Below the pieces are notes generated by a model. It searched no databases and was not told the DNA's origin. It saw nothing but the letters and a program-made list of their open reading frames with translations. From the NCBI GenBank assembly GCA_916610825.1, contig OU744454.1:3309821-3373820 (forward strand): a stretch of 64,000 bases of DNA. Direction: 5' to 3'. Shown piece by piece: positions 403 to 59,214 of the stretch. This DNA is from Haliclystus octoradiatus. Its lineage: Eukaryota > Cnidaria > Staurozoa > Stauromedusae > Haliclystidae. Position 1 is the first letter of the stretch, and every line of letters begins with the position of its first letter. Position numbers and translations under genes: made by a program.

Positions 403-21296
<20,894 letters not shown>

Positions 21297-22128: not shown

Positions 22129-36078
<13,950 letters not shown>

Positions 36079-42671: not shown

Positions 42672-42733
42672 CTCCCACCTCCTTGATGACCCAGAAAATT
42701 TGATACAACTAAGGATTATTTGATTTGTAGATC

Positions 42734-43897
42734 ATGGATATCAATGATGAGCTACCACAAACAGCTAAAGATGTTAACAATGCTTGGCTTAAGAAGACAT
42801 TATCTGGTCATTTTAAGGACATCACAGCAATCGAAATAAATGAACGCAAAGGTGAATTGCAAGGCTATCTCGGTGAGCTTATATCATTAAAATTACATTG
42901 CAGCAATTCGGAATCTGTTAGTCTAATTGTTAAAGTGAAATCTCATAGTAGGTTATGTAATCAATTTCTTGATGATGTCCAATTTCATTCTCGTGAAGGA
43001 TTTTTTTATAAAGTTTTATTACCAACATTATTGAATGTTGCAAACAATGGGTCGATTGTTAAGAAATATCTACCAGAATGCTATATTTCACTTTATAAAC
43101 AAAATGAAAACTGCTCTGCGATTGTTTTAGAAGATTTGGAAGTTGCTGGATATGAATTAGCAGAATTTTCCAAAGGATTAGATTTGCAACAAGCATTCGA
43201 TGCCGTCGAAGCATTAGCAATATATCATGCATCAACATATCTTACTATAAAAAATAAAAATGAAAATCGTTCATCGATATTATCAAATGATGACATTCAT
43301 GAGAAGTTTCTTAATTGGAAAGAAGAACATAGTGATATGTCTAATTGGGAATATTTCTTTGGTTGCGCAATCGATTGGTTTGACGATTATTATCCTGATG
43401 AAATTAAAATCAGAAAAAAAATTGTAGCACTTATTGCTTCTGCGCCAGAAATATTTAAACACAGTAGTAGGGTTCAAGATAATTGCCCAACTGTAATCTA
43501 CCATGGTGATTTCTGGTGTAATAATATTTTCTTTAACGCGAAAAATAATCAATTAAGAAATGACGTTAAATTAATTGATTTTCAATGTATTGCATATGGT
43601 AGCGCATGTATTGATTTGTCATCGCTTATAATGTCAAGTTTATCATCTGAATTGAGACGTTCGTCAACAGATGAAATTTTACAACATTATCATCAGACAT
43701 TTATTGAAGCAATGAAAGGTTTTGATGATAATTTAATTGATCAATATACATTTGATTCATTACAAGAAGATTATAAATCATCTCTTACCAATGGTCTATG
43801 CTGGTGTCTTTTGTCAATTGTAATATTTATGGATAATGGTGCTAGTAATCGGATTTTTAATGTTATTAAAGATTTATGTGATCAGAAAGTTATTTAA
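42734..43897 (+). CDS. CHK/ecdysteroid-kinase-like small-molecule kinase family protein
   Basis: A 387-residue protein encoded in one exon. The Brenner-type catalytic loop HGDFWCNN (about residues 257-264) and the metal-binding IDFQ (about 282-285) followed by AYGSACIDLSSLIMSS match the CHK/EcKinase-like family (relatives of choline kinase and aminoglycoside phosphotransferases). Upstream VLEDLEVAGY matches the family's hinge block. The length is normal for a single-domain member. Such proteins phosphorylate small molecules in arthropods, but the substrate cannot be read from sequence. TTTGATTTGTAG directly before the start suggests a spliced 5' UTR. No other member is nearby. Confidence 0.88.
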   Translation: MDINDELPQTAKDVNNAWLKKTLSGHFKDITAIEINERKGELQGYLGELISLKLHCSNSESVSLIVKVKSHSRLCNQFLDDVQFHSREGFFYKVLLPTLLNVANNGSIVKKYLPECYISLYKQNENCSAIVLEDLEVAGYELAEFSKGLDLQQAFDAVEALAIYHASTYLTIKNKNENRSSILSNDDIHEKFLNWKEEHSDMSNWEYFFGCAIDWFDDYYPDEIKIRKKIVALIASAPEIFKHSSRVQDNCPTVIYHGDFWCNNIFFNAKNNQLRNDVKLIDFQCIAYGSACIDLSSLIMSSLSSELRRSSTDEILQHYHQTFIEAMKGFDDNLIDQYTFDSLQEDYKSSLTNGLCWCLLSIVIFMDNGASNRIFNVIKDLCDQKVI

Positions 43898-44064: not shown

Positions 44065-44900
44065 TTATATATTCAAACCAAATATCACATGATTGTTTTA
44101 ATCAAACATGGTTGATTAATTTTACTTCTAAATCTGCATGATCTTACCTATTTGCATACCTATAATACCTATTCGTTTAAAGCAACGTTACGAATCATGT
44201 ATTATAAAAGTTTCTATTGGACAAACTGATAAATGTATTCAAACCAAATATCAAATAATTGTTTTAATCAAACATGGTTGACTAATTTTACTTCTAAATC
44301 TGCATGATCTTACCTATTTGCATACCTATAATACCTATTCGTTTAAAGCAACGTTACGAATCATGTATTATAAAAGTTTCTATTGGACAAACTGATAGAT
44401 GTATTCAAACCAAATATCAAATAATTGTTTTAATCAAACATGGTTGACTAATTTTACTTCTAAATCTGCATGATCTTACCTATTTGCATACCTATAATAC
44501 CTATTCGTTTAATGCAACGTTACGAATCATGTATTATAAAAGTTTCTATTGGACAAACTGATAAATATATTCAAACCAAATATCAAATAATTGTTTTAAT
44601 CAAACATGGTTGACTAATTTTACTTCTAAATCTGCATGATCTTACCTATTTGCATACCTATAATACCTATTCGTTTAAAGCAACGTTACGAATCATGTAT
44701 TATAAAAGTTTCTATCGGACAAACTAATAAATGTATTCAAACCAAATATCAAATAATTGTTTTAATCAAACATGGTTGACTAATTTTACTTCTAAATCTG
44801 CATAATCTTACCTATTTGCATACCTATAATACCTATTCGTTTAAAGCAACGTTACGAATCATGTATTATAAAAGTTTCTATTGGACAAACTGATAAATGT
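44065..44900. repeat. Minisatellite, five 166-bp units
   Basis: Unit starts (AAATGTATTCAAACCAAATA) fall at about 44065, 44231, 44397, 44563 and 44729, an exact 166-bp period, with only scattered single-base changes. It begins 170 bp after the CHK stop codon. The first AATAAA noted downstream is at 44951-44956, so the array could lie in the CHK 3' UTR. Confidence 0.93.
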
Positions 44901-45678
44901 ATGGAAAAACATGTTCTAAATAATTAAATGGATTAAATATAAACATTTTGAATAAATAATCAAATTATAATTTGATTTTTGATGGATTAATCCATTATTA
45001 TACACAGCAGATTAAATATTGAAATATTATTGTACAAATTTAAACTTAATAAATGTGAAGAAATATCGAATAGATTAAAAGCATTGTAGCATTTTTATAT
45101 ATTTATAACAATAGATGTAATTAATGAATTGAGAATTTGTAGAATCATTAATCTCAATCTGTACTCAAATATGATCCACGATGACTGTACAGATATGATG
45201 TTTATATGTAATATAACACAATTAATTTATACCAATAATAATTAAGTAATATTTTAATTATCTGTATTGAATGTAAAAAGTTTCTATATACAAAAATTTT
45301 TGGAAAATAATCTCCATAGTGTGATGTGCTTTCTTATATTTCTGTTAAACTTCTCTGCAGCATTACATATCAGTTTTACAGATTCAACAAATTTCGTGAT
45401 ATACAGGCTTTGTTGATGCAGTAATTCGTCAGAAATCTTTATAGTACAGTTTCCTTCAGACCATTTCATCCTCCATCGCAATATGGTACCACATGTGGCA
45501 CCTCAGTACTTTAGGTAGGAGGACGTACTTTTTTGAGAATCTTGCTAGCATCTTAAAATTGCAGGTTTTCTGGAATTTATACCCACAAATTGCAAAAAAT
45601 ATATATTATTTATTATAATAATAATGAAATGAAGTCAACGACTAAACATTCTTTATTTATTATTCATTATTTATAATA
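44901..45678. other. AT-rich intergenic DNA
   Basis: No coding signal. The 65-codon minus ORF at 45284-45481 has no family resemblance. AATAAA at 44951-44956 may be a poly(A) signal of the CHK gene. Confidence 0.4.
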
Positions 45679-48530: not shown

Positions 48531-48830
48531 CATGACACAAACTCTGTTTTACGTATGTAATTTTGACTTTAACCAAAAAGCTCATTTCAATATCCAATTC
48601 AAATGTTCAGTTCTTCGTGCCCCCGCAAACTGTCCAAGAAAACTACACACATTCACATTCACAAACTTTGTTTTATGGGGTAGCACTGCAATTGATATCT
48701 GTGAATTACATATCATAAACAACGGAGATATATATACGATATGATAACATTAATTTACTATGCAATCGAACGTGCTAAATACTGCATCCCCCTCATTGGC
48801 ATGGTTAGAGGGAAGCAGCTAATTATGAAA

Positions 48831-49077
48831 CATACATACATACATACATACATACATACATACATACATACATACATACATCATACATACATACATACAT
48901 ACATACATACATACATACATACATACATACATACATACATACATACATACATACATACATACATACATACATACATACATACATACATACATACATACAT
49001 ACATACATACATACATACATACACATACATACATACATACATACATACATACATACATACATACATACATACATACA

Positions 49078-49111
<34 letters not shown>

Positions 49112-49133
49112 CATACATACATACATACATACA

Positions 49134-49166
<33 letters not shown>
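48831..49166. repeat. (CATA)n microsatellite
   Basis: About 84 units of CATA/TACA with a few phase breaks near 48880, 49020 and 49106. Open frames of repeated Tyr-Ile-His-Thr or Met-Tyr-Val-Cys are artefacts. Confidence 0.98.
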
Positions 49167-49167
<1 letters not shown>

Positions 49168-50025: not shown

Positions 50026-50710
50026 TACACAGTACTAATTTGACATGAGACTTTTCAGACTATTTCAAAATTTGAATTCTCTTGCTTTGAAAAACCAAAA
50101 TACTTACACAGAACATACTAATCATACTGCTGTATCACCGGTCACAATGATATTTATATTTCCTAGAAATATCATATAGACTGTCTGACACGAGCTATAA
50201 ATTAACGAGTCGGAATTTTGTTCGAATTTGAAAAATAAGCGGATATCCGAACAAGTTTGTTTCAAAAATATTTTAATTTTAAAACTTTTCTTGAATTCAT
50301 TATAGCGTATTAGCAATGAGTGTGGTCCATAATGGACCTTCTATGATAAAACTTATTTCGCCAGTAAGACGTACATAAGTCGCGGACAGACACAGAAATA
50401 TAGTGATATATAAACAGACAGTATTATGTATATAAGTGATTATTGTCATCCTTGTGTTTGATATCTTGGCTAGTTGACTTAATTCGCCAATTTGTTCGGA
50501 GATCGTATTGTCTTTCAGATTCAATCGTAATCCGATTAAGGTACTTTTTATTTTATAACTCATACTATCTATATCACAGAAATATATATTTTTATAGCAA
50601 TATGTACATATGTATAAAATCTTGCTATTGGATTTTCATTGTATATTTGATTTGTAAATGACATTTAAGACGTATTTATTAAATTTGAGTGAAAATTGAT
50701 TTTTTTTTAG

Positions 50711-53700
50711 ATGAAGATCTCTTTCTTAATTGTCACCGTATTGATAACACTTGCTTTTGTAAGTGCAAAAGAAGATGATAAAGTAAAATGTGAAGACATC
50801 ATATCTGCAAAGGTATAATAATAATAATGACATAAAACGTGGCTATCGTTTGCTAAATAAGAGGATTTTACGATGATGACAGACAATTATTTAGAAATGC
50901 AATACAGTATTGTAGATGCCTGAAGTCACGGCCTTAAGTCCTTAGGGAAGGGCCGGGTCTGATAAAGAATTTTGACTCATACTTCGGGCTTTTTTGAGGC
51001 GAAAAATTGCAAGTACTGAAGCACCCAAATATGCAAATGCCACGCCTTTTATTAAGCAAAATTGACAACTCCCTCCCTTGTCAGAAGCATATAGTAAGCA
51101 TATTATCAGATAGTAAAAGTGTCCGTTTGATTGTTTGTTTTTTTCTATTGGACTATACTACTACACAGATTGTAGATTTGCAAATTAACATGGATACAAT
51201 ATTCAAATATTTCCATTTTTATTAGTCGTGTGTAGCTATGGAAAAATTAGGCAAGACACTTCAGACATCAATTGGAAATGTCAATCGAATTATCCGAAAT
51301 GCAGTTATCAAGGGAACAGGAAAAGTCTCTCTTATCTACAAAAGGTTATTGATGCGTTTGAAACGAGCATCAATTGGTTCACCAGATCAAAGTAAGTATC
51401 ACGTCTCATTATATCATGGTCACAAAAAAGAACTAATAGAAAAGTTACATTGATCACGTTCTAATTCTCTGGTGTTGCAGTAATATCAATAATATAGGGA
51501 GAAATTATCACTGTTTATTGTTGGGAAAATATATCTATTAATAGTAAACGTTGGGTTGGCATGCTAGCCTTCAAGGACCATCACATTTGCAGTTAAAGGA
51601 GCAACATTGACCAGCGGCTGCTACAAGCTCAACTTGAATTAAGCTTAGCATAAATTTCACCATCAATGTCAGTCACAGCTTCGGCATGGCTTCAAATTTC
51701 AAGTTTCAGCATGGTTTCAGGCACCGAAACAATACACTGTGACTCTAGGCATGTAGAGCCAATCGTTCATTTATGCTCTTTTAACACTGTGATTAATGAC
51801 ACCAAAGTATCATCGAATCGAGGAACTCACACTCACCTCTGTGTATTGACCTTTATTTATAAATTATGTTTGGCTCTGTTTTGAAATCTCTACGAGAGTT
51901 GATGCTATTTGATACGCTACTTTCAATCATTATACCCTCATCACACTATACTGTAAATATGGTCTAAATAGGAGAGGCTACTTTCATTACGCTTTTCGAC
52001 GGGGTCGTTCAACTAGATCTTTGGCAGAATGACCATAAAAAAATTCAGATCATGAAGAAAGTACTCCAAATGTAAAAAGTGTTTGAGCAACGTGAATAAA
52101 CCTCTTAATTGAAAATAATTTCTTGCACTTGATTAAAAATTAACAAATTGAAACTTTGATGATGATTATTATAACCTTCTGTATTAATGTGTTATTCTTT
52201 CTTATTTCTTGGTAAAAATTCAGACAAAATTGCAGAAGTAAAGAAATTGATGGATAAAATCATTGAAGATATTCTCAAAGAGTACAAGAATGCTGACAGT
52301 AAAATGAGAAAATTGATCGGTCGTGCTGTTCTCAATTCTCATTTCAAACGCAAGGGAATGGGAGTCGCTGTGAAAAATTTCCTTGAAAAGATCTCTGGCG
52401 AAAAAGATGATAATGTTGAAGGTGAGACTCAATAGGATTTGATTGACAAGGTCAAGGACAAGGTCGCATAGCCTCTTATGTTATTTTCTCCAATTCCAGT
52501 GAGCCTCTACAGCTAGCTTCCTATACACACTAGGATAAAATCACATCGGATTCCGTCAATCCTGCTATTAGTCGCAATATTTTCGTAGTATTGATGTTGA
52601 TACAGTACTATACGAATGACGCTATTCTATCAAAACAACCCTGTATATAAAGGTCACCTGTCTATAATGGTTAAATTATAGATATCGGCTTATTGGCTAA
52701 GTGGCTATACTGTACTGTATGCGATATATATTAAAATGTACCGTATATACAGAAAGATATTGTTTGAAGTGTTATTCGAAGGCGTAACCGACATACAATA
52801 CTCATTCCATATACCTGATTTCAAAAACTGGAGTACATTCGATTGGTAACCTACAATAAGTAGATGCCCACTTCTAGGTACCCCGCATACCTATATTGTA
52901 ATTATGAACAGCATTTCCGTAAGTAAATATCAATGCTATATTTGACTACTAATTCATATTCTGTATTATTCTCCCTGAAGATAATCATTTTTTTATTAAA
53001 AGTTTTAAAACTTAAAGTTGTCAGGTTCTGAACAACTGATAATGATGATGATAATATTACGTAACTTGTTGACTATATGAACCAGGGCTCGATAAAACGG
53101 GGACCGCTTGAGCCGCCGGTTGCAGGCACATTTTGGGAACATTGGAATTACTGCAGGCACATCTTTCAAGATTGCACAAATGTATGCATATTTGGAGTGA
53201 CTAGTGCAGACTGTTGTGAATCAGAAACTATTATGAATTCTACGCATTTTTCAATAAATTATATTCTCATTAAAATAATGTCCTTTCATTTAAGTCCGTA
53301 ACCAAAACAACTTGCAGACACTTTGAAAGGGAAAATTTGGTTGAAGGCACTCATATATTTTATAAACCCCTGGTATAAACACGCTGTATAGTATCCACCT
53401 GTTGCAGCGACCATTTCTTGAAGCAAACTACACGCTAGTCTCTCTGCTTCTATTACTGATTCATATAGAAGATGTACTCAAATGGTATATGTGGACCGTA
53501 TATTGCACCGGACTTATGATTTGATCATATCTGGTCGACTGTGAACTGTGGTTCTAATCTCTAAAGATCAGCTCAGCCTTGACTTTATCTAAAACATCAA
53601 ATGAGTACAATCTTCCAACGGTGGATGGTAACAACCAGACTCTCGTTGCTATAATATATTTTGTTTTCTTCATATTTGTTTCAGATAATTTGGAAACAAG

Positions 53701-55122
53701 ATATCGACGCACTGTCGACGAACAAATGAAAAGTATCCTTTCAATGGTTCGACTTTATGGTAAAGCTGCCTTGGCTAAGCTTCTTAATGCAGTAAGCAGT
53801 GGTCTTGGACATTTCAAAACATACTTAGAAGATTATTTGAAGAAAATGGAAGGAAGTAGAACGATCCGATCTGAAGGTATGATTGGATTTATATTGTATT
53901 CTTAATCCGTTTGAACTGAAAATAAAAATATATGTTATTATGACAATTGAAATTAAGCACAGTGCTATCAAATCAGAGAACATTTTCGAATAACTCCAGG
54001 AAAAATTATATTAGTTTTATTTGAATATAGACAATCCGTCAGCAACGATATTAGCCTTTACAAAAACGTGATTCATTCAAGCAATGAAAGACTTGAAATC
54101 TACAAGTAACTATTGTAGGACTTTCTTGTAGATAATCTACAATGATTCTCAATGTGGAAGAAACCAAAAGGCTACCTTTAGCCTATGTAATATATATACA
54201 CGTCTGTACCATGTTGTCTTTGTTGTCAACATTCTTTACGGCCTGAAAAATGGTACCCTAAAATCTTGAAAACTGTGGTGAAATCTTACTTGCCTGTAAG
54301 ATCTACACGCAGGCTAACAGCCCTAAGAATTTCAGTAGCATTTCATACTGAATGATACATGAGTGATACTTATACGCAGTAGGGACGTGTCGTTGGATTA
54401 TAAAAACGTCTTCTTCATTGATCCTAATAGTTTGCACGCCTGCCTGAATTTCATGTGTAGATGAAATTGTATTTAATCTGAGGGTATCATTTCTCTTTAA
54501 ATTAAAATCCTGTTGTATTTCTGATAGATGACGAAGACCGTATTGCTGACGAAGAAGCTCAAAATGAAATCAATGCTATTGTTGATGAAGCAGAATTTGA
54601 AGTTGAATTGAGCATTGAAAGTACTGTTGGAGAAAGCGAGAAAGAAATTGAAGAAATATCTAACGCTTTGGGTCATGAAATCTCAAGAAGAGACTTAGCT
54701 GATGACAGTAAGTGAATATAATATATATATATCAGGGGTGCTAAAGATTACCGTGCTTATACGGTGTCAGTCCTTTACAACGACGGAGTTGATGTCTATC
54801 CACTGAACAAAATGTCTATCTAGCAAGATGGAGAACCATTTTTGGGGCTTAGTTTTCAAAATATCCTCAATCTCTGATCGGCCTTGGAATCTCAATATTT
54901 TCAAGCCATCTAGTCATGAATAATATTTTTTTTTCTCTTTTAGTTATCTTGAAGAAGTTTGAATTCTTTCTTGGAATATTTGGTGCAATTGCTGGTCCAC
55001 AACTTCATTCAATTGCTAATCAATTATTCCAAACGCATCGTCAAGAAATTATTGCAGGTGTAAAAGGCGGATTCTTTGCCATGCTTCGACTTGTTCCCAA
55101 ACTTCTTCCATTGATTGGATAA
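50711..55122 (+). CDS. Secreted modular charged helical protein, unrecognised family
   Basis: Six coding exons keep phase: 50711-50812, 51226-51391, 52224-52421, 53685-53876, 54528-54707 and 54944-55122 (TAA), about 338 residues. Residues 1-19 are a clear signal peptide (MKISFLIVTVLITLAFVSA). Only two cysteines were seen in the mature part, ten residues apart. Exon 2 encodes a strongly basic, amphipathic stretch (NRIIRNAVIKGTGKVS, YKRLLMRLKRAS). Exons 3 and 4 encode mixed-charge helices (IIEDILKEY, KAALAKLLNAVSSGLG). Exon 5 is very acidic (over twenty Asp/Glu in about sixty residues). Exon 6 is hydrophobic and glycine-rich (FFLGIFGAIAGPQ, FFAMLRLVPKLLPLIG). Internal exons are phase 1-1 modules, so they can be duplicated or swapped. 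The basic, acidic and hydrophobic order recalls antimicrobial-peptide precursors, but this is inference; no family match is claimed. AATAAA follows at 55238. Confidence 0.8.
51963..52100. mobile_element. Diverged relative of the 46648 hAT-like MITE
   Basis: GGGTCGTTCAACTAGATC and CAGAATGACCATAAAAA align with GGGTCGTTCAAATGGAAC and TAGAATGACCATAAAAA of the element at 46648. Right end not seen. Confidence 0.5.
52625..52720. mobile_element. pogo-like MITE, 3' part
   Basis: ACCCTGTATATAAAGGTCAC and CTGTCTATAATGGTTAAATT are family sequence. Both ends are lost. It lies in the intron after exon 52224-52421. Confidence 0.55.
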
Positions 55123-55237: not shown

Positions 55238-55243
55238 AATAAA
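55238..55243 (+). terminator. Poly(A) signal of the secreted-protein gene
   Basis: AATAAA lies 116 bp after the stop codon of the secreted-protein gene, followed by a T/G-rich stretch (GATCTTTTGAGTTTTG). This is normal spacing for cleavage and polyadenylation. Confidence 0.6.
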
Positions 55244-55559: not shown

Positions 55560-58507
55560 TTAAGGTCACTCTCTAGTCTAACATTTTTCTACCATTTCCA
55601 AAGTCACTAAAATTGTTATTTTGTGGCAAATCAGTTTGTGTCCCATCAAAATTGAGCTGGATCTAAAAATTTTGGTCTAAAAATAGCTTCTCTGGTGTAA
55701 AACGCACGAAATATAGCCTTTGGCCTGACAAGGATCCAGGTTCAGGGGAAGTAGCTTTGGACCCCAAATTCAGTACAAGTATTCCTTAAGAGTTGCATTA
55801 TGCAACTATAGAATTAGATTTTTTAATTAGCAAGTTATAAAAAAAAAAAACAGATTTGTAACTTGACGTCACGAAATTTGTAAATCGATTGTTTCAAAAA
55901 AAATTTATTAAAAAATATTTAGATATGTTATAAAAATTCTGTTACTATAGTTGCATGGATAATACAGTAATAAATAAATAATCCAAATTTGAAAGCAATA
56001 GCTTTACAAATGAGTTTGCTACATCCGTCAAGGTCATTGAAAATCGCTCTAAATCATAAATTGAGAAAATCGCGGTCAAAGTCAAAGTTTATGTTTATCT
56101 GTCTATATTTTAGTTGTAATTGGATTAAAAACCACCTGCTTCATAAGCAACTCCTTCTTCCTCTAATACCTCATCCTCTACTGCTTTTTTCGACTGTCTC
56201 TGTGCTTGTCTGATTTTTTTTTGGATGGTTGATGCATTTCTATCACTTTCACGAATTCTTTTCTGGTCAATCTTACGTGTTTGCGCCAACATGAATTGTC
56301 CTGGTGCTACTCCCATGGCAACTAACACATTATTTAAGGCTGAGGTTCCATCATTGAATACAGTGACTGCACTAGCACAAGCAGCATCGAGGTGAGCTCT
56401 CCCAGATGACACACCTTTAGGACATCTAGACCAGATAAGATGATTCAGCGCCTCACAAGAATTTTGCGTATAGCCACCAAGACATCCTTCGAGTATTTCG
56501 TCTTTGCCCAATCTTTCATATGTAGGTTTCAGGACAGCTACAATTGACTCAGGTATAGTTTTAACATGGGAGTACGTTTCTTTATTGGCAACAGCTTTTT
56601 GGTATTTGCACCATGATTCTTTCCCAGTTGGACAGTTCTGGTGCTGTGGTTTATCATCTGTCGAAGCTGTGTGATATAGACCAGCCCAAACCTCTTTTCT
56701 CATTGCTTCTAAGTTATATTTATTTCTTCTAATAGCCAGACCATAATATATTTGCAGCTTACCTATAAGGTCTTTTGTCAGCCTACCACGTCCACCAATA
56801 GTTTTACCATCAGGCAATTTTTTCTTTCCCCATTGTGTTTTCAATTTTCGCAAAGCGTTGCCCATGCGCTTTTGAACATGTCCGACGCATTCATGCTTTT
56901 TAATGTCAATTTTATTCCCATAAGGCATACTTTCTTTTATATTGGAGAACGACTTACTATCTCCATCACCAATATATCCCGTATATCTGAGTTTCTTATC
57001 CTTTACCGATCTTTCATACATTCGCTTTATACCTTCCGGCTCCATGGAAGGGGCAGACCCATCATAGTTTACTGGGCATATATGATTTGCATTCCAGGAT
57101 TGTTTTTTTAAACTTTCAGGTTTTGAGCCCCAACGTGAACAAGAAGAACACAATTTGTTCATGCTTTCGTAGTCTAGAACTTTGCCTGATTCAACCGATA
57201 TAGCTGTGACAACTCCTTGCAGGGAGGAGAAGCCCCGTTTGCGCCATGACCCATCGAACATAGCTTTACAGTCAGCAATTTTTCTTTGCTGTACATCCTG
57301 CAAGTTATGCTCCTCTTTAGCTGCATTTAGCATACTGGATGATGCGCATTGTTCAAGAGACTCTTTCACAATGTTCAAATTGTCTATGTAGGAGGTTTCA
57401 GTCATTGCTTCGGGCATATTCAGAATTGCACATAACTTTTCGAGTGAAGTTTTGCCACCACCAATTTCTGACATTCCAAATACAGCTCTTCTGTTGATCT
57501 CATAACCTCTAGATCCTTCAGCTATAGGGGAAGTGTATGATTCAGTGATAGCTGAACATGATTCACAGGTTAGCATAATCATGGAAGACAAACCCATTTT
57601 TCTTGATGAATCTTCTTGTAAACATAGTCTCCCTTGTTTGCATGATTTACAAATCGAAGCTTCATTGATCAATAATTCAAGTAGTTTTAAATTGACAAGC
57701 CTGAATCCATGACATTTATCCTCAATTATAATATCTTTTTCTGATAACTTCAGTTTTTTCGAGCTTGCTCCAGGTTGCTCATCAAAATCAGCTGATTCCT
57801 GTTGTTTCTCGTTGAGGGATTTTTTAGCTGGAAATAACTTCCTTTTACACCTCCTTTTGACAGAAAATTTCCTTCTAACATTTGATGAATCACCAGAAGA
57901 CATTATAAACACGAAAAAGAAATCAATAAATATTTCAAGGCTTCGGATACACAGTTGAAAGCAATAAAAACTACTTCAAAACGATTACATTCGTGAAAAA
58001 CTATCACTTTTGAACCCTTTTGAATGCAGTGTGGAAGTAGCTTCAATACAGCACTTCTATTGGACAATATAAAAAAAACCTTTTGTTTGGAATATTGGAG
58101 CGACTTGATGTTTAGAAATTCCATTGTCTGATAGGGTGTTGGTCAAGGTCTCATTTAGAAGCCAATATCGATTTAATGGCAGAGGCTACAACAAAATGGC
58201 CTGAAAAATTGGAAACAGCGATAAATTACCAACAAAATGAATGTCTTATGCCTAAAAATGACCAAAATTTACCATTTTTTTCCAAATTTGCAATGTTTTG
58301 CACGAAATGGACCAAAAAAGCATGAAAACAACAAGAAATGCTAGGTATGATCTTTGAAAATGTATTATTTTGTAGTTTTTCGTTCGTTTTGTAGTAAAAA
58401 AAATTCAGAATCATGTTCCTTAATAATTATACTTACTAAAAACAAGAAAAGCTCAAACTCAACAAAATTTTATTTTTTCCCAAAATTAGACTAGAGAGTG
58501 ACCTTAA
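55560..58507 (-). mobile_element. Complete Kolobok-like DNA transposon
   Basis: The 18-bp inverted ends GGTCACTCTCTAGTCTAA (55564-55581, and inverted at 58486-58503) are identical, and TTAA lies on both sides (55560-55563, 58504-58507). The 2,940-bp element encloses one long intact ORF on the minus strand with about 590 bp of 5' and 560 bp of 3' non-coding DNA. TTAA duplications occur in Kolobok and piggyBac; the transposase sequence is not piggyBac-like, so Kolobok-like is the better call. Perfect ends, perfect duplications and an open frame point to a recent insertion. Confidence 0.93.
56125..57912 (-). CDS. Transposase with Mutator-like transposase domain (Kolobok-like element)
   Basis: A single open frame of 595 codons. 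The basic N-terminus (RRKFSVKRRCKRKLFPAKK) looks like a nuclear-localisation or DNA-binding segment. A zinc-binding pair (CKSCKQGRLCL ... LTCESC) follows near residues 90-120. The central catalytic region has MFDGSWRKRGFSSLQGVVTA (about 215-235) and YIGDGDSKSF (about 310-320), holding two likely acidic catalytic residues. ECVGHVQKRMGNALRKLK and LIGKLQIYYGLAIRRN are strongly typical of the mutator-like transposase domain family found in many animal genomes. Later motifs TGKESWCKYQKA and CLGGYTQNSCEALNHLIW support the same family. The ORF has no frameshift or internal stop, so it may be functional. It catalyses cut-and-paste of its own element by inference. Confidence 0.9.
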   Translation of the reverse strand: MFIMSSGDSSNVRRKFSVKRRCKRKLFPAKKSLNEKQQESADFDEQPGASSKKLKLSEKDIIIEDKCHGFRLVNLKLLELLINEASICKSCKQGRLCLQEDSSRKMGLSSMIMLTCESCSAITESYTSPIAEGSRGYEINRRAVFGMSEIGGGKTSLEKLCAILNMPEAMTETSYIDNLNIVKESLEQCASSSMLNAAKEEHNLQDVQQRKIADCKAMFDGSWRKRGFSSLQGVVTAISVESGKVLDYESMNKLCSSCSRWGSKPESLKKQSWNANHICPVNYDGSAPSMEPEGIKRMYERSVKDKKLRYTGYIGDGDSKSFSNIKESMPYGNKIDIKKHECVGHVQKRMGNALRKLKTQWGKKKLPDGKTIGGRGRLTKDLIGKLQIYYGLAIRRNKYNLEAMRKEVWAGLYHTASTDDKPQHQNCPTGKESWCKYQKAVANKETYSHVKTIPESIVAVLKPTYERLGKDEILEGCLGGYTQNSCEALNHLIWSRCPKGVSSGRAHLDAACASAVTVFNDGTSALNNVLVAMGVAPGQFMLAQTRKIDQKRIRESDRNASTIQKKIRQAQRQSKKAVEDEVLEEEGVAYEAGGF

Positions 58508-58737: not shown

Positions 58738-59214
58738 GAATATCATATAGTTGTCAGTCTGAGAATATGGTTCCAAACTTGGATACTTTTCTAATTGTAT
58801 AAATTCTTATAACCTGAATATCATATAGTTGTCAGTCTGAGAATATGGTCCCAAACTGGGAAACTGGGATACTTTTCTAATTGTATAAATTCTTATAACC
58901 TGAATATCATATAGTTGTCAGTCTGAGAATATGGTCCCAAACTTGGATACTTTTCTAATTGTATAAATTCTTATAACCTGAATATCATATAGTTGTCAGT
59001 CTGAGAATATGGTCCCAAACTGGGATACTTTTCTAATTGTATAAATTCTTATAACCTGAATATCATATAGTTGTCAGTCTGAGAATATGGTCCCAAACTG
59101 GGATACTTTTCTAATTGTATAAATTCTTATAACCTGAATATCATATAGTTGTCAGTCTGAGAATATGGTCCCAAACTTGGATACTTTTCTAATTGTATAA
59201 ATTCTTATAACCTG
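58738..59214. repeat. Minisatellite, six 78-bp units
   Basis: Units start GAATATCATATAGTTGTCAG at 58738, 58816, 58902, 58980, 59058 and 59136. The second unit is 86 bp because of an extra GGGAAACT. Otherwise units are almost identical. Confidence 0.95.

Follow-up and report, generated by a model that had tools for sequence, protein, structure and literature searches.

Nematode polyprotein allergens are described, in the available part of PMC3079579, as secreted lipid binders made of repeated helical units with one conserved cysteine pair per unit. The arminins of Hydra and the arminin-like peptides of placozoans are made, according to the available part of PMC12013895, from precursors of about 150–250 residues with a signal peptide, an acidic N-terminal pro-region and a cationic, alkaline C-terminal part whose glycine is thought to be amidated. 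Here we analyze a 64,000-nucleotide stretch of the genome of Haliclystus octoradiatus (the window, to which positions refer unless stated otherwise), a species of Staurozoa, a poorly studied medusozoan class. Gene A of the window is predicted to encode a secreted protein of helical segments with a cysteine hinge, and genes B, C, D and E are its relatives in the same genome.

Gene A and its relatives

Gene A consists of six coding exons on the forward strand (50711–55122), which join into 1017 nucleotides encoding 338 residues and a stop codon. GT-AG borders were found at all five introns and the reading frame was intact across every join, in line with the initial annotation, which had proposed six exons joined in phase into a 338-residue secreted protein; the signal sequence in exon 1 was read by eye. 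The annotation had also spoken of phase-1 modules, which holds for introns 2–5 but not for intron 1, which is in phase 0. The genome searched for relatives comprised 261,861,806 bases in 33 sequences; the available part of its published description gives 262 Mb in 33 scaffolds, nine chromosomes holding 98.3% of the sequence, a longest one of 40 Mb and a mitochondrion of 18.3 kb (PMC9975415). In the 10,000 bases read of contig C33 (18,316 bases), putative cox1 and large rRNA genes are on the minus strand and the majority of the remaining long frames on the plus strand, an arrangement typical of medusozoans. Searches with exons 4 and 6 of gene A returned the window and one weak second place each, at 34% (expect value, E, 0.009) and 31% (E 0.1), respectively. 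These places lie about 400 bases apart on contig C1 and led to gene B, which has 11 coding exons and 667 residues; the first seven exons, a signal exon and six modules, are joined in phase 0, and the last four are entered in phase 1. A search with one module of B identified gene C (C1:11763217–11768879, minus strand), 0.7 Mb from B, in which seven exons encode 390 residues comprising the signal peptide and six modules, with no C-terminal exons. When the six frames of 314,000 bases were searched with a 13-module profile, genes E (minus strand, module E 4.2e-4) and D (plus strand, module E 4.9e-4) were found beside B, so that B, D and E are clustered on one chromosome. Gene D encodes 333 residues on the same six-exon plan as A. 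In gene E (324 residues), a single exon carries both signal and module, and four phase-1 exons come after it. Open frames and GT-AG sites, assessed by eye, were the basis for modelling B, C, D and E, with alternative splice sites unscored.

The orphan status that the initial annotation had given to gene A is thus rejected, since at least four relatives are present in the same genome. A whole-genome search with B at E<=1 recovered only A, B and C and missed D and E, and five genes are therefore a lower bound for the family. Tandem copies beside gene A were also rejected, because tblastn of the window with 50 kb on each side found, besides gene A itself, nothing better than E 1.0.

The family has in common a signal peptide, a C-x7/8-C hinge and between one and six helical modules; a module spans about 60 residues and usually occupies a single exon. 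The four phase-1 exons are present in four of the five genes (A, B, D and E). B and C carry six modules each, the other three genes a single one. Since gene C consists of the hinge-module array alone, the array and the four-exon C-terminal part can, on these gene models, exist apart. The hinge spacing is C-x8-C at 14 of the 15 junctions in the five genes and C-x7-C at the remaining one, in D. Across the 13 modules aligned from A, B and C, the hinge cysteine is invariant, and one alanine and one glycine are nearly so. Because A and D have no cysteine besides the two of the hinge, the pair probably forms a disulphide that would close a small loop between units.

Genes A and B are colinear exon by exon with identical phases, a positive outcome of the check suggested in the initial annotation, which was to look for paralogous copies with the same exon phases; 95 of 304 aligned residues are identical (31%). 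Beyond the signal exon, every exon of A (five in all) had its best match among the other 20 segments in its positional partner in B, and none of 2000 shuffles equaled the score. The module of A scored 25.3 bits against a profile built without A, where the best of 500 shuffles reached 8.6. D and E are far more diverged: 11 of the 25 exon comparisons involving either of them gave p <0.05, exon 4 never did so, and exon 6 did so once (A–D, 0.043). The C-terminal homology of D and E consequently rests mainly on common architecture and phase. Taken together, gene A and its fast-diverging secreted family are almost certainly real.

Two proposals on the origin of the segments were set aside. Internal duplication within A was examined in 10 exon pairs, none of which was convincing (lowest, 96 of 2000 shuffles). 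Descent of exons 3–6 from the hinge module received weak support: against a 12-module profile, 5 of 500 shuffles equaled the score of exon 8 of B and 16 to 193 of 500 those of the seven remaining C-terminal exons (A3–A6 and B9–B11), and against the 13-module profile the corresponding values were 0 of 500 and 7 to 252 of 500.

The absence of a recognized family, noted at the outset for the product of A, was borne out by profile searches. No Pfam family was judged credible for any of the five proteins, and PDB searches with A, C and the module profiles gave no credible structure (whole-length B, D and E were not among the queries). Two Pfam matches in B, DUF7726 (E 2.5e-6; 27.9 bits, formally above the cut-off of 26; best stretch 17 residues) and DUF7418 (E 2.8e-5, below cut-off; best stretch 46 residues), were not listed for A, C, D or E and were rejected as sums over repeats. 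ISG65-75 in D (E 8.4e-5) and DUF6891 and PCI in C, all below cut-off, were judged to be helical chance. In the PDB, 7rdr (E 2.9e-5), listed as a circular tendon repeat protein and which we take to be a designed protein, was rejected, its score adding up eight weak copies. Queries with C against viral contigs gave 7 pattern matches, and queries with B against bacterial and archaeal genomes gave 143, none of them confirmed as a relative (A was not scanned in either set). Among the matches listed from the open-licence PubMed Central literature, titles and abstract openings did not name the family. The family is therefore unnamed in the libraries searched, a claim that falls short of "unique".

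Basic sites, charge order and readings of the products

Four basic cleavage-type sites were located in the product of A. The furin-type RLKR (residues 78–81; 51355–51366, forward strand, as for the others) lies near the exon 2/3 boundary, and B has RLRR nearby in another column. The furin-type RYRR (residues 161–164; 53699–53710), the minimal RxxR site RTIR (residues 214–217; 53858–53869) and the dibasic RR at the exon 5/6 boundary (residues 273–274; 54686–54691) are aligned in column with RHRR, RATR and RR of B, respectively, and HEISRRDL around the last is identical between the two proteins. A further RxxR inside the module, RIIR in A, is aligned with RIVR in B. Three RxxR sites of A thus fall in the same columns as in B, a number reached by none of 5000 shuffles. 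A and B have sites of the [KR]-x-[KR]-R type close to exon borders 2/3 and 3/4 (A numbering), and D and E have them at 5/6. Within eight residues of the exon 5/6 boundary, [KR]R was present in all four genes that have this boundary (A, B, D and E), with a chance product of 4.5e-5 if these are independent; at the other three boundaries it was present in 0/4, 1/4 and 0/4, RLKR and RYRR of A and RLRR of B being at or just past the limit. Since the dibasic site recurs at the exon 5/6 boundary of A, B, D and E, the simplest common reading is that their product is a proprotein that would release its last exon. Cleavage of these products at basic sites appears rather probable.

The net charges of exons 1–6 of A are 0, +9, +5, +4, −19 and +4. 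Exon 1 (50711–50812) encodes the signal peptide and the first hinge cysteine (CEDIISAK) and ends in phase 0, and exon 2 (51226–51391), ending in phase 1, encodes a helical module with the second hinge cysteine. Exons 3 (52224–52421) and 4 (53685–53876), both phase 1-1, encode helical segments; they had been called mixed in charge, but both are net basic, while the basic, acidic and hydrophobic characters assigned to exons 2, 5 and 6 stand. Exon 5 (54528–54707, phase 1-1) is the acidic segment and has HEISRRDLADD at its C-terminal end, and exon 6 (54944–55122) encodes a hydrophobic cationic C-terminal segment with a final glycine, followed by the stop codon. The grand average of hydropathy of exon 6 is 0.75, the highest among exons 2–6; that of the signal-peptide exon is 0.74. 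The amphipathicity reported for exon 2 was recovered and extends to exons 3 and 4, the best 18-residue helical moment being equaled by 11, 26 and 29 of 500 shuffles, respectively; exon 5 is unremarkable in this respect (89 of 500). Single-sequence AlphaFold2 placed one helix over nearly the whole length of exon 2 (mean predicted local distance difference test score 84, predicted template modelling score 0.46) and of exon 6 (77 and 0.31), and these models indicate helix propensity, not fold. In helix 2 of the module, the mean hydrophobicity periodicity of the 13-module alignment was strongest at 93 degrees.

The reading that we favor, with a probability of roughly 0.4, is that A and B are precursors of membrane-active helical peptides. 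All four proteins with an exon 5/6 boundary (A, B, D and E) would be cut at its dibasic site by a furin-type proprotein convertase, and A and B would additionally be cut at RxxR sites near other exon borders. In these two proteins the cuts would part cationic helical peptides from the acidic piece that may shield them in the precursor, and the terminal glycine could be amidated. Membranes would be the target of the released peptides, with antimicrobial host defence as the most likely role and a part in secretion or venom as a less likely one. In favor of this reading, the charge order of exons 3–6 in A is matched by that of the corresponding exons of B (+3, +6, −12, +3), and both proteins end in glycine. 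A peptide precursor remains plausible, but the basic, acidic and hydrophobic order, which the initial annotation had likened to precursors of host-defence peptides or to a lipid-binding helical protein, is common only to A and B.

Several observations weigh against our reading. The charge order, the acidic exon and the C-terminal glycine are lacking in D (+2, −2, 0, +5) and E (0, −3, 0, −3), the [KR]R site of E falls just inside exon 6, and gene C has neither any [KR]R or RxxR site nor the C-terminal exons. The test of the exon 5/6 site treats A and B as independent, though they are related, and this boundary is the best of four; the test of aligned RxxR sites ignores the 31% identity, and one of its three sites sits inside the module helix. 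In A, composition suffices to account for the amphipathicity of exon 6, as 167 of 500 shuffles equal its helical moment, and the periodicity of module helix 1 in the 13 modules was strongest at 159 degrees (0.35), against 0.32 at the helical 100 degrees. In addition, the predicted peptides of about 50–80 residues are long for antimicrobial peptides. With neither charge order nor glycine in D and E, and neither sites nor C-terminal exons in C, the release of membrane-active peptides cannot be the role of the whole family. Alternation of charge, stressed in the initial annotation, does not define the family either, since D and E keep the exon plan and the cleavage-type site at exon 5/6 without an acidic exon.

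Gene C, free of cleavage sites, would suit a secreted lipid carrier comparable to an exchangeable apolipoprotein or a nematode polyprotein allergen, in which amphipathic modules would bind lipids or fatty acids and cleavage would merely split the chain into carrier units. We hold this reading possible though doubtful. The 12 modules of B and C are modest in net charge (−5 to +5), and, according to the available part of PMC3079579, the helical precursors of nematode polyprotein allergens are processed at [KR]-x-[KR]-R. The weak top PDB profile match was apolipophorin III (E 0.44) and a weak Apolipoprotein match was seen in D (E 0.51), but both are at chance level, and the extreme charge order of A and B and their terminal glycine would be left unexplained. 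The almost invariant hinge spacing and the six-module hinge arrays of B and C, with one module in A, D and E, might instead indicate a structural or adhesive extracellular protein (of mucus, coat, attachment disc or nematocyst matrix), a rod of disulphide-hinged helical modules whose length is tuned by module number. This is unlikely: a rod would give no obvious role to the charged segments or the cleavage-type sites that A and B possess, and no low-complexity or cross-linking motif was noticed on reading the proteins, though no dedicated search was run. That the exons of gene A are a chance reading or a decayed pseudogene is very improbable in view of the intact frame, the five GT-AG introns, the poly(A) signal and the exon-by-exon match to B in the same phases.

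Extending the precursor reading of A and B, we tentatively propose that one precursor yields a mixture of peptides: helical modules of one exon each, linked by a disulphide hinge and gained or lost as exons, would be separated by cuts at basic sites close to exon borders. In the branch of A and B, several membrane-active helices and an amidated C-terminal peptide would be shielded by the acidic module. The family would then be an undescribed stauromedusan, perhaps wider cnidarian, one. Exon architecture and a probable cleavage site that outlast sequence divergence (to 31% identity between A and B, further in D and E) are what one expects of genes serving defence or secretion. Should cleavage at exon borders prove true, the family would clearly exemplify the use of exons as peptide-release units, with defined peptides available for testing.

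Flanking signals and neighboring features

Candidates for the TATA box, 5' untranslated exon and poly(A) signal of the initial annotation were located at 50407, 50540 (the donor) and 55238. The TATA-like box TATATAAA (50407–50414, forward strand) is a consensus match only. The putative 5' untranslated exon (50437–50540, forward strand) takes its end from the donor-like AAG/GTACTT, likewise a consensus match only, and its start was placed about 30 nucleotides past the TATA-like box. The upstream layout of gene B parallels that of A, with TATAAAA at 11042775 and a donor exon end at 11042838, and in both genes an acceptor-type AG abuts the ATG. The poly(A) signal AATAAA (55238–55243, forward strand) lies 116 bases past the stop codon of gene A.

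Intron 3 of gene A contains, at about 53520–53630, a short stretch ending in words like TTGACTTTATCTGAAACATCAAATGAGTACCATCT; similar stretches occur in intron 1 of gene C and downstream of gene D, both of these preceded by tRNA-like letters. By eye, the recurring stretch resembles a short interspersed element. About 1 kb downstream of gene A, on the opposite strand, a 616-residue open frame (56125–57975, minus strand) matches a Mutator-like transposase (Pfam PF20700, E 9.5e-82); a plasmid search with it gave no match. Upstream of gene A, a 388-residue stop-free frame (42731–43894, forward strand) matches the ecdysteroid kinase-like (EcKL) family (E 1.1e-48), and a 996-residue open frame (24431–27418, forward strand) includes a 147-bp repeat (49 codons) in about six copies (25771–26668, 94% matches) and matches nothing in Pfam at E<=0.01. 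On the minus strand, at about 4763–11466, several frames show EGF-like repeats by eye and perhaps belong to one receptor-type gene; the frame tested among them (10267–10665) matches the models for EGF, laminin-EGF and DSL. Long microsatellites of the TAA/TTA and ACAT types, together with minisatellites of 166 bp and of 156 bp (or 78 bp), occur at 5595–5798, 35149–35412, 35677–35912, 48830–49167, 44070–44902 and 58738–59214.

Comparison with described systems

Exchangeable apolipoproteins and apolipophorin III resemble the family in being secreted and rich in amphipathic helices, and the profile resemblance to apolipophorin III is weak and at chance level. In a search of A–E, the Apolipoprotein model of Pfam matched D only, with 10.4 bits against a cut-off of 90. 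Exchangeable apolipoproteins are not known to have cysteine hinges or sites of proprotein cleavage.

The nematode polyprotein allergens (NPA, ABA-1) are likewise secreted, helical and repeated, with a cysteine pair per unit, and their precursors are cut at [KR]-x-[KR]-R, sites of this type in A, B, D and E being putative cleavage sites. They differ in a conserved tryptophan of the unit, tryptophan being counted here twice in C, once in D and not at all in A, B and E, and they are described as restricted to nematodes. No NPA model was among the Pfam families listed for A–E at E<=10.

In A and B, an acidic exon stands before a cationic last exon that ends in glycine, an order comparable to that described for the arminins. 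The likeness would be limited to A and B, as D and E have neither an acidic exon at that position nor a terminal glycine. By description only, A differs from the arminins in its length of 338 residues, its four basic exons with a single acidic one next to last, its cysteine hinge and its multi-exon modules. By analogy, the branch formed by A and B appears most like the arminins, and the modules of B and C, with their modest charges, appear more like the nematode polyprotein allergens.

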